A stretch of 64,000 nucleotides of DNA from Candidatus Nezhaarchaeota archaeon (GTDB lineage: Archaea > Thermoproteota > Methanomethylicia > Nezhaarchaeales > WYZ-LMO8). Below are positions 36,400 through 61,629 of the stretch, one piece after another. The stretch is taken from NCBI GenBank assembly GCA_025059375.1, contig JANXDO010000004.1:1-64000 (forward strand), in the 5' to 3' direction. A model generated the notes under the pieces. The model searched no databases, was not told where the DNA came from, and saw only the letters and a list, made by a program, of their open reading frames with translations. A program made the translations under genes and the position numbers. Position 1 is the stretch's first letter, and the number at the start of each line of letters is the position of its first letter.

Positions 36400-37467
36400 T
36401 TATCTAGTTATCGTAGCCCTCTTCATAGTCTCAAGCAGGTCCCTTGCTTCTTTGTTACTCTCAAAATATCTCCTCACGGGCTCAAGCATATTAGATAGGG
36501 CCTTAGAGACAGCTTGCTTAAGATCTTGGGGGTGAAGATCTCCCTTAGCATATAACTGGGCCAGCTCAGTATAGCTTTCAACGTATAAATCACCGCCATA
36601 CTTATCCTCACGCTCAATGTAAAGCCTGAAGCTTGGATCTGCAAAAAGCAAGTGCTTACATATTTCAATTAGGGGATTCATTTCGATAACTCGAGGGGGA
36701 CAATACGCTGAGTTAATCTTCCTCGCTATCTCCTCCGGTGTATCGTGGACGAAAATGCAGGATTCAGGTTTAGATTTGCTCATCTTGATGTCAGTTTCAT
36801 CTACCTCTTTTAATTCAAGAGGCGGTCTTAGACCTATGAGAAGAGGGGTATGAAGAGCAACAGGCTTTTTCCACTTATTTTTCTCAGCTACCTCTCTGGC
36901 GAGAACATGGGCCTTACGTTGATCAGTACCACCTAAGCATAAGTCGAGGTCCATGTAGAAGATGTCAGCTACTTGCATGCACGGATAGATGAGCTTTGAG
37001 AAGTCAAGGATACTTTCGCTCTCCTTCCTCCCCATTATGGTTACAGCTCTACGAACCCTCGCTAGCGACACATTCTTAGCTACTGTAATTACAAGCTTCC
37101 AATAATCGGGATCGCTAACTAGCTTCTCAGCTCTTATGTACTCTATATCGCCCTTATCAATACTTAGTGCCTTAAGTACATGCTCCATGTATGTAGCACA
37201 CTTATGTATCACGTCAAGATCTCCACTGAGCTTATCATTAATCCATGCATGCCATGTAGCCTCCAAGATCTTCATCTTAACACCAACATCCAGTAAGTCT
37301 CTGACTTTTCTTGCCCAGATGAGCCAGCCAATGTGAAAAAGTCCTGAGGGCTCAACCCCTATATAGCCCTTAATGTTGCCCCCCCTCAAAGTCTCAATAA
37401 CCTCAGAGAGCGTCAAGGTCTCAACAACATTCCTAGTTGCTACTTTCACTTTCTCCTCAAGATCCAT
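36400..37467 (-). CDS. tyrS: Tyrosyl-tRNA synthetase
   Basis: The protein has 355 residues, the archaeal/eukaryotic short form. GVEPSGLFHIGWLIWA (about residues 36-51) contains the class I HIGH-type motif, and DIKMSKSKPE (about 237) the KMSKS motif. DLCLGGTDQRKAHVLARE is the tyrosine-binding helix. It attaches tyrosine to tRNA-Tyr. The gene follows the structured RNA candidate at 37490-37600 on the same strand, 23 nt downstream of it, so the RNA could lie in its leader. Confidence 0.95.
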   Translation of the reverse strand: MDLEEKVKVATRNVVETLTLSEVIETLRGGNIKGYIGVEPSGLFHIGWLIWARKVRDLLDVGVKMKILEATWHAWINDKLSGDLDVIHKCATYMEHVLKALSIDKGDIEYIRAEKLVSDPDYWKLVITVAKNVSLARVRRAVTIMGRKESESILDFSKLIYPCMQVADIFYMDLDLCLGGTDQRKAHVLAREVAEKNKWKKPVALHTPLLIGLRPPLELKEVDETDIKMSKSKPESCIFVHDTPEEIARKINSAYCPPRVIEMNPLIEICKHLLFADPSFRLYIEREDKYGGDLYVESYTELAQLYAKGDLHPQDLKQAVSKALSNMLEPVRRYFESNKEARDLLETMKRATITR

Positions 37468-37489: not shown

Positions 37490-37600
37490 AAGCCGCGCCG
37501 GCTGTCACCGCGCACTGACCCACCCGATATCATAGTCTCGGGCCTGATGCCCCCTCCATGGGACTCTCTAAATGCGCGGATGAACAGCGCCGGCGCGGCC
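37490..37600 (-). ncRNA. Candidate structured RNA B upstream of tyrS
   Basis: Very GC-rich compared with flanking genes. Plus-strand coordinates of the stacked helices: 37492-37500 pairs with 37591-37599 (9 bp), 37501-37505 with 37584-37588 (5 bp), 37508-37513 with 37574-37579 (6 bp). On the minus strand the inside holds two more hairpins (CCCGA/TCGGG and GTCCC/GGGGC), so a multibranched RNA. A TATA box (plus CCTATAAAGG, 37622-37631) centres 26 nt before the G at 37600. I do not recognise RNase P, SRP, H/ACA or C/D features, and the class is unknown. A protected leader of tyrS is the alternative. Confidence 0.6.
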
Positions 37601-37601
37601 T

Positions 37602-37641
37602 GAAATATCCTTTTAACAAAACCTATAAAGGTTAACGTGGA
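37602..37641. promoter_or_regulatory. Shared 40-bp AT-rich gap with two opposing TATA boxes
   Basis: CCTATAAAGG (37622-37631; read on the minus strand as CCTTTATAGG) is centred 26 nt from the minus-strand RNA start near 37600. CTTTTAAC (TTTTAA at 37611-37616) is centred 26 nt from the plus-strand RNA start near 37639-37640. Upstream purine and AAC runs could serve as BRE for each. The geometry supports divergent transcription of RNA B and RNA A. Confidence 0.55.
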
Positions 37642-37745
37642 GCCGCTGGGTTTGTGCCGCAGTTGGGTAAGGTGGTAGCTCATGCGTCGGGAAACCCCCT
37701 CATCGTCACTCCACCCCGTCGCTGCGGTTTTAAGAACCCAGCGGC
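37639..37745 (+). ncRNA. Candidate structured RNA A, antisense to the pheT 3' end
   Basis: GC-rich hairpin with three coaxial helices: 37642-37652 with 37735-37745 (11 bp, GCCGCTGGGTT), 37657-37662 with 37722-37727 (6 bp), 37671-37675 with 37711-37715 (5 bp), and a GGG/CCC cap (37689-37697). A 13+13 internal loop with GATGA and CATGAG elements could form a kink-turn. T-rich sequence follows the helix. A promoter-like TTTTAA is centred 26 nt upstream on the plus strand. Orientation is inferred from that; it could instead be the folded 3' end of the pheT mRNA. Class unknown. Confidence 0.5.
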
Positions 37746-39452
37746 CCAAATATTGTTCTGCTTTAAGGGGGTATTAATGCTTGTATTCAATAGTTCAAGT
37801 ATTTTTGAAACGCTTATTTCAAAAGCTGCCACGGGCATTTGAAGTCCAAATTTTAATAGAACTTCAGGCTTGACTTCACCTAAATAGCCTACCTCTATTC
37901 CACGCGCTCTTACTGAACCGCATCGCCCATCAATCATTAAGCCCATACGTGAGCTTTGAACTTCAAACTTTAGTCCAAGACTTCTAAGTAACGAGTATAG
38001 TACTGCTTGAATGTCTTCATACCCAACCTTGTAATCGGCATGCAATGCAGCTAGCCTTCTCTCTGAGAAGCTCATCACATCATAGCGATCGTCAATCAAC
38101 ACGACATCACCTACCTCGAATATTTTTTGAGGATACTCAACGTGAGTATTCTCCGATAGAAAATCTAGAAGTGGAGGTATGAGACTAGTTCTCAGGCACG
38201 TATAATCAGATGATACTGGTTTAGTAACCTTAGCACGTTTACCGTACATAAATGCACTGTCGAGTTTAACATCACTTGTAATCATGTAGCTTACAACCTC
38301 TTGAAAACCATATCCTATCATCAGTTCACGGCACAATCTGCTGAAAGATGTTATCTTTAGCTCCATGCCATGTGCTGTAATCGGCAGCATAATTGGGGAT
38401 ATTCTATCATACCCATAACCAATAGCATACTCCTCGGCCACATCAACATCGTCCATTATATCAATGCGATATGGTGGTACTAAAACATCTATGGTTTCAT
38501 CGCCTCTTATCATTGCTTCCATTCTGACGCGCCTTAGGCTCTTAATCACCCTAGTAATAGGCTCCTCTATCCCGGTAATTTCGATGAGGCGCTTATGACT
38601 TACAGTTATGATATTACACTCCATTAAGGGTTCTACCCTCTCTACGTCACCTTCTTGGTGTACCTTGAATTGAACTATTTTACCTCCTCTTTCAGCTAAA
38701 TTGCAGGCTAAGATAGTCAGGGTCCATCTGACAGCCTTCAAATCAATGCCCGTAACGTCTATTAATATGTTCCTTGTTTGAGGAGTAACTTTCGTCAAGT
38801 TCGAATTTATTATGGGGGGCATGGAAAGTATATTATTACCAGAATCAATAAGTAAAGGAGCTTTAGCCTTTTCTCCAATTATCCATCCATACTCCTTACC
38901 CTTAGCATGCTTTTCAAGTATTTCTCTACCAGTCATTTTAATGTCTTCTCCGAGAGGCACGAAGGAAAATGAGTCAAAAGGCTTAGCTGTGTATGTGATA
39001 GGTGGGTCTATGACGTCAAAGTTATGTAAGCCTATAGCAAATTTTCTTCGATTCCTACCATGGGTTCTATGTAGTACCTCCTGTAATTGGATTAACTGTC
39101 TAAATCCCTCATATCCAAGATTGCACTCTTTAACTACAGCGCAAGCAACATATGGCCTCACATCTCGCACGATATTCTCAACATAAACAGCATAATCCCT
39201 TTCGGCCCCTTCCACCATGTAATTAGGTAGACCAACTTCAACCTCAAGGAAACCTTTTAAACTTCGCGCAATACCCTCTGTTGAGAACATGTCAGGTCTA
39301 TCAGCTGTAACCTCAATTAGCACCTCATCAGGTCCAAGGCTTTTAACCTCAGCCTTCATCAGATTTAAGGTATTCACTAATTCCTCATCCGTTAAGTCCC
39401 TCTTACCGACTAGTTCAATTAAGTCCTTCTTACTAATGCTTATTGTAGGCAT
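37680..39452 (-). CDS. pheT: Phenylalanyl-tRNA synthetase beta subunit
   Basis: ATG 39452 shares a base with the pheS stop (TGATG), with GGTGAT 6 nt upstream; two GTG codons before it are less likely. The 590 residues show archaeal PheT blocks: LIEVTADRPDMFSTEGIARSL, LLIDSGNNILSMPPIINS and VDVAEEYAIGYGYDRI. The B1-B5-like core ends by about residue 560 (AFEISVSKILELL); the last about 30 residues (from QNNIWAAGF) lie inside the GC-rich RNA A element and look like run-on coding rather than a conserved tail. Confidence 0.93.
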   Translation of the reverse strand: MPTISISKKDLIELVGKRDLTDEELVNTLNLMKAEVKSLGPDEVLIEVTADRPDMFSTEGIARSLKGFLEVEVGLPNYMVEGAERDYAVYVENIVRDVRPYVACAVVKECNLGYEGFRQLIQLQEVLHRTHGRNRRKFAIGLHNFDVIDPPITYTAKPFDSFSFVPLGEDIKMTGREILEKHAKGKEYGWIIGEKAKAPLLIDSGNNILSMPPIINSNLTKVTPQTRNILIDVTGIDLKAVRWTLTILACNLAERGGKIVQFKVHQEGDVERVEPLMECNIITVSHKRLIEITGIEEPITRVIKSLRRVRMEAMIRGDETIDVLVPPYRIDIMDDVDVAEEYAIGYGYDRISPIMLPITAHGMELKITSFSRLCRELMIGYGFQEVVSYMITSDVKLDSAFMYGKRAKVTKPVSSDYTCLRTSLIPPLLDFLSENTHVEYPQKIFEVGDVVLIDDRYDVMSFSERRLAALHADYKVGYEDIQAVLYSLLRSLGLKFEVQSSRMGLMIDGRCGSVRARGIEVGYLGEVKPEVLLKFGLQMPVAAFEISVSKILELLNTSINTPLKQNNIWAAGFLKPQRRGGVTMRGFPDA

Positions 39453-40957
39453 CACCACATCACCATCTTACTTCTAAGAAACCTTAGATCGCGAGAACAA
39501 AGCTCTCTTATGTCTGAAATTTCAAGCATTGCCATGGCTAGCCTATCTATCCCTATACCCCATGCTGCAACTGGATAGTCTACACCAAGACTTCTAAGCA
39601 CCTCAGGCCTAAACATCCCAGCACCGAGACATTCTATCCAGCCGAGTTGTGGATGGTGTACTGCACCCTCAATGCTAGGTTCAGTGAATGGGAAGTAGCT
39701 CGGTCTAAACTTAATTTCTTTAAAACCCAATCTCTTAACTAAATCTTGCAAGATCCCGAGCAATATTCTAAGGTTTACCCCTTTATCACCATAGATTCCA
39801 TCAACTTGAGTAAACTCTATGAAGTGAGTAGCGTCAATGACGTCTGGTCTAAAGACCTTCGACACGCAAAACATCTTAACAGGTGGTTTAGGCCTCTTTG
39901 CTAAATATCTCGCTGAAACAGCTGTTGTGTGACTTCGAAGTATAAGTCTTGATGCTTGCTCCTCACTCCAACTATAACCCCATTTCTCTTCATGCACCCT
40001 CTTAACCCTCTCAACAAGCTCTCTTTCAGGTAATTTACCTCTTAACGGCTCTGAAAGTATAAAGCAGTCATGGATTTCTCGTGCAGGATGGTCTTGAGCC
40101 TGAAACAGCACATCAAAATTCCAAAATTCCATTTCGACGTAGGGGCCTTCTGCCTCCACAAAACCCATTCCTACCAATATTCTTTTAACCTTATCAAGAA
40201 ATTCTGCGTAAAAGTGTTTTCGTGCAGGATAAATAACAGGCGGCTCTGCTGACACATCATAGGGCTTCAAGCATACATGTCTCCACTCCCCACTTTTAAT
40301 TAAGTCTGCAGTAAGAGCTCCAACAATCTTAAAGCTCAAAACATTTTCTATAACCTCTAGACAGCGGTCAGTCATTGAGACTATGATCCTCTTACGAGGC
40401 GTCATAGTAATGAGTTTCCGCATTTTCAACTCCATTAAAACTTCCTGAGATAACTCTTTCGAGTTAACCCTTCCATTCACTAATACTCGTTTCAACCATT
40501 CTTCAATTGGATCACTCTCACTGAGACGTTGTACTCTAACAACCTTCTTGTTGTCGATCACTATAACGTCTCCTAAACACTTCTTGCGGATCCAGCCCAA
40601 TGCAACTCTTATCTCCTCATCCTTCATATCTACCATGGTTTTCAAACTCTTTAATGGGACCTGTCCTCCAGCCTCCATAACTTTCTTTGCCAATCTCCTC
40701 TCAGGCAAACCCTCTATGGCATATCTCTTGCCCTCGTCTGTTAACTCAACGTACTCCTCCTCTACCGTAAGAATCTCTATGAGACCCTTTTGACCTAGAG
40801 CCTCAATATAAGACATGACAGAGCTTAGACTCAAACCTGATGTCTCTGCAAGCTTTTGCACATCCACACCTCTTCCTCCAACCTCTCTTAAGCGCTTTAA
40901 GAGTTCCACTTCGCCCTCTGAGAGCTTTATCTCCTCCACTGACACATTACCCCTCAT
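39452..40957 (-). CDS. pheS: Phenylalanyl-tRNA synthetase alpha subunit
   Basis: ATG 40957 has GGTG 6 nt upstream; GTG 40966 is the longer alternative. About 501 residues. The N-terminal about 180 are winged-helix modules (for example GVDVQKLAETSGLSLSSVMSYI), as in archaeal and eukaryotic PheS. The class II catalytic core has FWNFDVLFQAQDHPAREIHD (motif 2 region), SHTTAVSARYL and GIGIDRLAMAMLEISDIRELC (motif 3). It forms the alpha2beta2 enzyme with PheT. Together with tyrS and the divergent trpS it makes a synthetase cluster. Confidence 0.95.
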   Translation of the reverse strand: MRGNVSVEEIKLSEGEVELLKRLREVGGRGVDVQKLAETSGLSLSSVMSYIEALGQKGLIEILTVEEEYVELTDEGKRYAIEGLPERRLAKKVMEAGGQVPLKSLKTMVDMKDEEIRVALGWIRKKCLGDVIVIDNKKVVRVQRLSESDPIEEWLKRVLVNGRVNSKELSQEVLMELKMRKLITMTPRKRIIVSMTDRCLEVIENVLSFKIVGALTADLIKSGEWRHVCLKPYDVSAEPPVIYPARKHFYAEFLDKVKRILVGMGFVEAEGPYVEMEFWNFDVLFQAQDHPAREIHDCFILSEPLRGKLPERELVERVKRVHEEKWGYSWSEEQASRLILRSHTTAVSARYLAKRPKPPVKMFCVSKVFRPDVIDATHFIEFTQVDGIYGDKGVNLRILLGILQDLVKRLGFKEIKFRPSYFPFTEPSIEGAVHHPQLGWIECLGAGMFRPEVLRSLGVDYPVAAWGIGIDRLAMAMLEISDIRELCSRDLRFLRSKMVMW

Positions 40958-61195: not shown

Positions 61196-61629
61196 TATTC
61201 ATCACCTGGTGGTCCTCTTTCAAAAATTGGTTTACCTTTAGATGTTGGTGGCGCAAGCCAGTCTATTACTGATTTAGCATCAACACCAGTAATTTCAACC
61301 TTTATAGGTCCTAGAGGGGATTCCCTGCTTGGCAGGCAGAAGGTGATGTTATTCATGAAAGCTGCCTGCTTGTGAAGGTAGAATACTACTTTGTCTTCAC
61401 TTGACCATCTTAGCATCATCAACCTTGCAGAGTCTAAGATTTGTTGCTGCCTTATTCTCTGATGCAATCTCTCAAGGGCTTTAGGTCTTTCAGCTTCAGC
61501 TATAAGTATCTTGCCCGTACCTAAGTCCTCAATCTTGAGGCTTGATGGTGTGATGACGTTAAGCACTGCGGTCCTCACCTTCTCTTCATCTTCTGTCGGC
61601 CTTATCTCCGCTCTAACTATTATCTTCAT
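61195..61629 (-). CDS. UPF0201-type protein
   Basis: The protein has 144 residues. KIIVRAEIRPTEDEEKVRTA is the N-terminal block of UPF0201 (COG1931), and a double ferredoxin-like beta-alpha layout follows, ending with a Pro-rich tail. These proteins are archaeal, of unknown activity, and usually encoded next to UPF0200 kinase-like proteins, exactly as here. It begins 1 nt after the stop of the UPF0200 gene. Confidence 0.88.
   Translation of the reverse strand: MKIIVRAEIRPTEDEEKVRTAVLNVITPSSLKIEDLGTGKILIAEAERPKALERLHQRIRQQQILDSARLMMLRWSSEDKVVFYLHKQAAFMNNITFCLPSRESPLGPIKVEITGVDAKSVIDWLAPPTSKGKPIFERGPPGDE

Follow-up and report, generated by a model that had tools for sequence, protein, structure and literature searches.

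Linked H/ACA guide RNAs in archaea

The guides of the Pyrococcus H/ACA set combine a lower stem of 8-9 pairs, a pocket, a GA stem of about ten layers and a K-turn, and their ACA lies 14-16 nt below the top of the pocket, at 14-15 nt in the productive folds (PMC4652768). The same range of 14-16 nt from pocket to ACA is given more generally (PMC4652768, PMC7991803). Haloarchaeal Psi2586 and Psi1915/1917 are known and have been assigned to two linked H/ACA hairpins, the euryarchaeal Pf7/Pab40 and HP1-HP2 of Haloferax; in Thermococcales the two are adjacent hairpins of one RNA (PMC2584109). Among hyperthermophilic Thermoproteota, H/ACA guides occur in Pyrobaculum, where most members have lost the lower stem and sR201/sR202 have short ones.

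The window analysed here, a stretch of 64,000 nt from a Nezhaarchaeota-like genome, carries between pheT and tyrS a right element (R, 37642-37745) and a left element (L, 37492-37599), which are interpreted, with a probability of about 0.87, as tandem minus-strand box H/ACA guide RNA genes. The class itself is well known; R and L add new, unannotated members to it and form a conserved, mostly syntenic pair. With the Pyrococcus set they share the lower stem, the pocket, the GA stem of about ten layers, the K-turn and the position of the ACA, and the upper stem of R has ten layers, like productive Pyrococcus guides; they differ from it in the lower stem of R, which has 7 pairs, in the 16-nt spacing of L, in an extra outer stem directly after the ACA, and in that the Rfam archaeal H/ACA models match neither element. 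Unlike most Pyrobaculum members, R and L retain the lower stem, and they add the outer one. Their predicted target regions, and the order of these, are the same as for Pf7/Pab40 and HP1-HP2, the R-L linkage being observed whereas the targets are predicted only; in contrast to the single RNA of Thermococcales, R and L are separate units, each with an outer stem, and in some genomes they point in opposite directions. No description of the R/L family, of its genomic address or of the outer stem was found in the limited set of open-access literature searched.

Genomic layout, folding and strand

Read along the minus strand, pheS and pheT are followed by R (37745-37642), then by an AT-rich gap of 42 nt, by L (37599-37492) and by tyrS (36400..37467; tRNA-synt_1b family), whose start codon lies about 25 nt past the end of L. 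The pheT reading frame (Phe-tRNA synthetase beta, 37680..39458, minus strand) has no stop before R: along 37680-37770 it continues about 30 codons into R and ends at the K-turn UGA. This use of the R K-turn TGA as the pheT stop is restricted to the window genome, pheT of the relatives ending before R.

The original prediction had described two GC-rich structured stems flanking an AT-rich gap, and both the fold and the shuffles bear this out. The minimum free energy z-scores on the plus and minus strands were -5.05 and -5.05 for 37492-37599 and -4.60 and -3.92 for 37642-37745, with 0-1 of 200 shuffles equally stable for either stem. Since R and L each greatly exceed shuffles in fold stability on both strands, the strand cannot be chosen from folding alone. 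The ACA, the K-turn and the guide arms are present solely on the minus strand, in R and L alike, which places the two in tandem and leaves the gap with the promoter of L only. A DNA search matched the region in every one of the six family genomes and in no genome among 35 others, and pheT, R, L and tyrS are collinear in all six. Family-invariant in both elements are the ACA under the inner stem and the GA and UGA atop the upper stem.

Upstream of L, a TATA-like box CCTTTATAGG (37622..37631, minus strand) lies about 26 nt from the base of the L stem, and its position is conserved in six genomes: it is found 22-23 nt from the stem in 6/6 family genomes (exact in five), and the distance is unchanged in G002, where R sits about 95 nt further off. 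By sequence alone the box is not unusual within the window, where the sole other exact copy of CCTTTATAGG lies at 61299-61308 on the plus strand. Of the two TATA-like boxes originally proposed, one pointing each way, the one beside L is thus kept in the family, whereas the plus-strand CTTTTAAC was seen in this genome only.

Anatomy and homologues of the right element

With its outer stem, R occupies 37642..37745 (minus strand) and is delimited by its fold, a six-genome alignment, covariation and homologues; its core, from lower stem to ACA (37653..37728), is matched by models R1 and R3 with an E value of 1e-17. The 5' strand of the lower stem, ACCGCAG (37722..37728), forms seven pairs with CTGCGGC (37656-37662), two of which show two-sided changes within the family, and the minus-strand consensus is RCCGCAG/CUGCGGY with the ACA 0-1 nt after the stem. 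The pocket is formed by the 5' guide arm CGACGG (37716..37721), which is family-invariant, with the GG conserved and A at its fourth base (q4) in 31/35 loci, and by the 3' guide arm TTACCCAA (37663..37670; consensus UUACCCA), whose first base lies 15 nt before the ACA and in which ACCCA is present in 35/35. Above it, the 5' strand of the upper (GA) stem GGTGGAGT with the GA of the K-turn (37706..37715) faces the K-turn ATGA and the 3' strand GCTACCACC (37671..37683), giving eight pairs with one bulged base plus GA opposite UGA; the UGA is family-invariant and the stem covaries. The box ACA itself (37653..37655) is invariant across all aligned homologues, and right past it begins the outer helix, in which GCCGCTGGGTT (37735..37745) pairs with 37642-37652.

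In an unfitted MAFFT alignment of six genomes, 94.4% of the cells of R were paired and 6/18 pairs showed two-sided changes, with a covariation score reached by 0/500 shuffles. Across 34 distinct homologues all 18 pairs showed two-sided changes, again with 0/500 shuffles reaching the score, in an alignment that was fitted to the model and is biased to it, although slid controls dropped to 25-47% paired.

Model R1 matched R in further families of the order and the class, and a second R model, R3, for which 13 hits served as input, detected a single R in each of 55 genomes out of 299 sampled across the phylum. Of 35 fetched R loci, two of which (L068 and L135) represent one site, 25 have a PheT match immediately upstream of R and 28 have one within about 1.5 kb, and named examples of R just after pheT include one Methanomethylicota and one Bathyarchaeota record. 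An R-like match in Candidatus Baldrarchaeum yapensis (L169:1501-1585, E 5e-5) has an AACCCA 3' arm, an ACA and an outer stem directly after it, and no PheT or TyrS match within the 3 kb fetched. R3 gave no match in two Thermococcus genomes (L109, L129), a distance that may exceed its sensitivity. Five genomes, that of the window among them, have a third H/ACA-like hairpin in the leader immediately ahead of 16S rRNA (L011:3118-3194, minus strand, own genome; L012:1302-1380; L013:3124-3200, minus strand; L014:1299-1378; L048:1309-1388), with R3 matches of E 1e-5 to 3e-4 and guide arms that differ from those of R.

Anatomy of the left element and its relation to tyrS

L with its outer stem (37492..37599, minus strand) was defined by fold, alignment, homologues and covariation, and its core from lower stem to ACA (37503..37579) is matched by model R2 with an E value of 2e-21. 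The 5' guide arm AGAGAGT (37563..37569), of which GAGAGT is conserved beyond the family, complements ACUCUCU of 23S helix 69, and the 3' guide arm GGGTCA (37516..37521), starting 16 nt before the ACA, reads GRGUCA in 9/9 sequences. Between the arms, the upper stem consists of CCCATG with the GA of the K-turn (37555..37562) and of the K-turn ATGA with the 3' strand TATCGGGT (37522..37533), amounting across sequences to 7-8 pairs plus GA opposite RUGA or GGA, with one mismatch. The lower stem has 7-8 pairs and covaries. The ACA (37503..37505), 1-2 nt after that stem, is invariant in nine sequences. In the outer stem, 37590..37599 forms ten pairs with 37492-37501, with 100% of cells paired and two-sided changes at 2/10 pairs.

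Within the family L is near-invariant and its minimum free energy fold is a three-way junction. A three-way-junction model suits the family and was rejected, its inner hairpins being broken in three outside genomes (G006, G007 and G008). The L homologues of these three fit an H/ACA hairpin with a GAGAGU 5' arm and a GRGUCA 3' arm 16 nt before the ACA, at 17 nt in G007, whose lower stem contains a single bulged base. Because L is so highly conserved inside the family, its fold is settled by just these three sequences. An alignment of eight sequences, from which the window sequence was excluded as its 5' end misaligns and from which the bulged C of G007 was removed by hand, had 97% of cells paired and two-sided changes at 7/14 pairs, with 0/500 shuffles reaching the covariation score.

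L adjoins R throughout the order, and in the main family of the class an L-like architecture with an AGAGAG 5' arm, an ACA and an outer stem was recognised, by eye only, between R and tyrS. Both in the family and in G007, tyrS immediately follows L. G006 instead has tyrS first, then L past its stop and then R, and in G008 L and R lie on opposite strands and face each other, L and tyrS also converging; in these two genomes, therefore, L is not in the tyrS 5' leader. R and L remain neighbours while the order and orientation of tyrS vary, which argues that L is not primarily a tyrS leader. In the window the tyrS transcript likely includes L, whose end lies about 25 nt short of the start codon, and L could for that reason have a secondary regulatory effect. 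The tyrS genes of G006 and G008 (L023:1756-2862 and L025:200-1309) are 45-48% identical to that of the window, vs 54-58% for more distant families, and their order or orientation differs, a pattern that replacement of the gene, with the RNA pair left in place, would give.

Class assignment and alternative readings

Both elements carry a lower stem, an open two-armed pocket, an upper stem leading to a K-turn, and an ACA at the foot. Their lower stems (R 7, L 7-8 pairs) fall within the canonical 7-9 pairs, and their distances from pocket top to ACA (R 15, L 16 nt) within 14-16 nt. The original prediction had found no H/ACA signature and left the class unknown; on both counts it was mistaken, while its description of two unannotated, structured and probably thermostable non-coding RNAs is supported. 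The covariation test that it had proposed was passed by both R and L, and the Rfam scan, at gathering as well as permissive thresholds, returned no relevant match for either. ARAGORN found no tRNA and a repeat search found nothing at the two elements. Pieces of a split or permuted tRNA, of RNase P or of SRP were considered and are not supported. The genome also encodes cbf5, apparently spread over two frames (TIGR00425 match, E 9e-104). The gene, at G000:C4:130491-131464 outside the window, shows two overlapping matching stretches, the 5' one with internal stops, and looks split by an intron or a frameshift; archaeal cbf5 introns are known (PMC2738675).

By analogy with the known H/ACA family, L7Ae would bind the K-turn and Cbf5 the pocket and the ACA, and the resulting RNP would turn a uridine of 23S rRNA into pseudouridine. 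L would be directed to helix 69 (U1917, perhaps U1915) and R to the peptidyl-transferase loop (U2585 or U2586). Transcription of L probably starts from the TATA box beside it and, in this genome, continues into tyrS, and R follows pheT; the GC-rich stem after each ACA probably protects the RNA or helps to free it from a longer transcript.

Three other readings of the locus were weighed. An unlikely one is that L is a cis-regulatory tyrS leader, either a riboswitch or an L7Ae-bound K-turn controlling translation of the synthetase. In the family and in G007, a transcript from the promoter box would indeed begin at L and extend into tyrS, and translational control by L7Ae through K-turns has been proposed in archaea (PMC5539422); against it, L follows the tyrS stop in G006 and converges with tyrS in G008, R has the same architecture and follows pheT, and the ACA and the guide arms would have no role in a leader. 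The suggestion of a tyrS leader plus a pheT 3' element thus describes the position of the elements in this genome and misses their main identity, the arrangements in G006 and G008 being different. It is more improbable still that the hairpins serve the pheT and tyrS transcripts as terminators, end-protecting stems or processing sites, as their place between two genes and their very high GC content might suggest, but the unpaired pocket bases, the ACA and the K-turn are their most conserved parts. A scan for bacterial-type promoters and terminators found nothing, including no terminator-like site, with a bacterial consensus that is ill-suited to archaea.

Hardly credible, finally, is the arrangement first proposed, in which two divergent RNAs of unknown class share one promoter region, with R on the plus strand. 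Good folds on both strands and the TATA-like CTTTTAAC facing right had spoken for it; however, CTTTTAAC is not conserved, and R as well as L bears its ACA, K-turn and guide arms on the minus strand, so that the right element is a minus-strand gene and the divergence falls away.

Predicted targets

Target scans used a fixed pocket geometry and covered the uridines of 23S and 16S rRNA. Around an unpaired UN the arms of R showed complementarity at two sites and those of L at helix 69; each site outscored permuted guides and none was perfect; the candidate 23S segments are helix 69, UGGGUUUAGACCGUC and GGGUAAGUUCCGG. For L, U1917 in helix 69 was the best of all 16S and 23S uridines as a mean over five genomes (25.4), a score matched by 0/300 permuted guides in one multi-genome test and by 1/100 in another. 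On single genomes the signal was weak, with 15, 23 and 3 of 100 permuted guides as good, and the 3' arm forms only about four contiguous pairs at U1917. From its sequence, L likely guides modification of helix 69, at U1917 and perhaps at U1915 in some families.

R has two candidates above chance, U1955 (24.5) and U2585/U2586 of the peptidyl-transferase loop (22.9), against permuted means of 17.5-18.7. The strictly matching target GUGGGUAA-UN-CCGUCG (15-nt register, two-base gap) is absent from 16S and 23S rRNA of this genome. That R guides U1955 in 23S helix 71 is possible, though the less probable of the two options: in the window's own family this site offers seven contiguous pairs with GGGUAAG and 5/6 with CCGGCG, has the normal two-base gap and scores above the peptidyl-transferase loop, and in multi-genome scans it is the top uridine, with 1/300 permuted guides as good. 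The peptidyl-transferase pairing, for its part, leaves 4-5 target bases unpaired vs the usual two. The two are separated by conservation of the guide. Position 9 before the ACA (p9) is A in 35/35 loci and q4 is A in 31/35, and these bases pair with the peptidyl-transferase site, whereas at U1955 the conserved p9 pairs in 0/35 and q4 in 4/35; U1955 would also demand an ACA spacing of 16 nt and an upper stem whose closing pair is opened. As judged from pairing and conservation, the most likely target of R is therefore the peptidyl-transferase loop (U2585 or U2586).

The outer stem below the ACA

A GC-rich helix within two bases of the ACA was found in 25 of 35 R loci (p<=0.05) by a strict test for contiguous pairing that overlooks gapped stems, such as those of G007 and G008, which are gapped but fold as outer stems. 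Those L sequences that were inspected likewise have an outer stem after the ACA. In the literature, the ACA is given as the end of archaeal H/ACA motifs (PMC4652768). The outer stem probably protects the RNA or aids its excision from a longer transcript, which is the least certain step of the proposed mechanism. Its recurrence after the ACA poses the question of how archaeal H/ACA RNAs leave mRNAs.

Implications

R and L represent a covariance-supported guide RNA family, absent from Rfam, that extends across Methanomethylicia-like and Bathyarchaeota genomes and whose position in the genome, immediately past pheT, can be predicted; this makes the pseudouridylation of helix 69 and of the peptidyl-transferase centre testable in uncultured archaeal lineages. 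That two such guides are linked in archaeal groups so far apart suggests that the pairing may be old. Tentatively, and at well below even odds, R and L may be the Thermoproteota form of an ancient linked peptidyl-transferase/helix 69 guide pair that shares its origin with the euryarchaeal Pf7/HP1-HP2 pair, and in which an outer helix closes immediately below the ACA; if so, an internal loop would contain the ACA, an arrangement that might serve circularisation or controlled release from pheT and tyrS transcripts.
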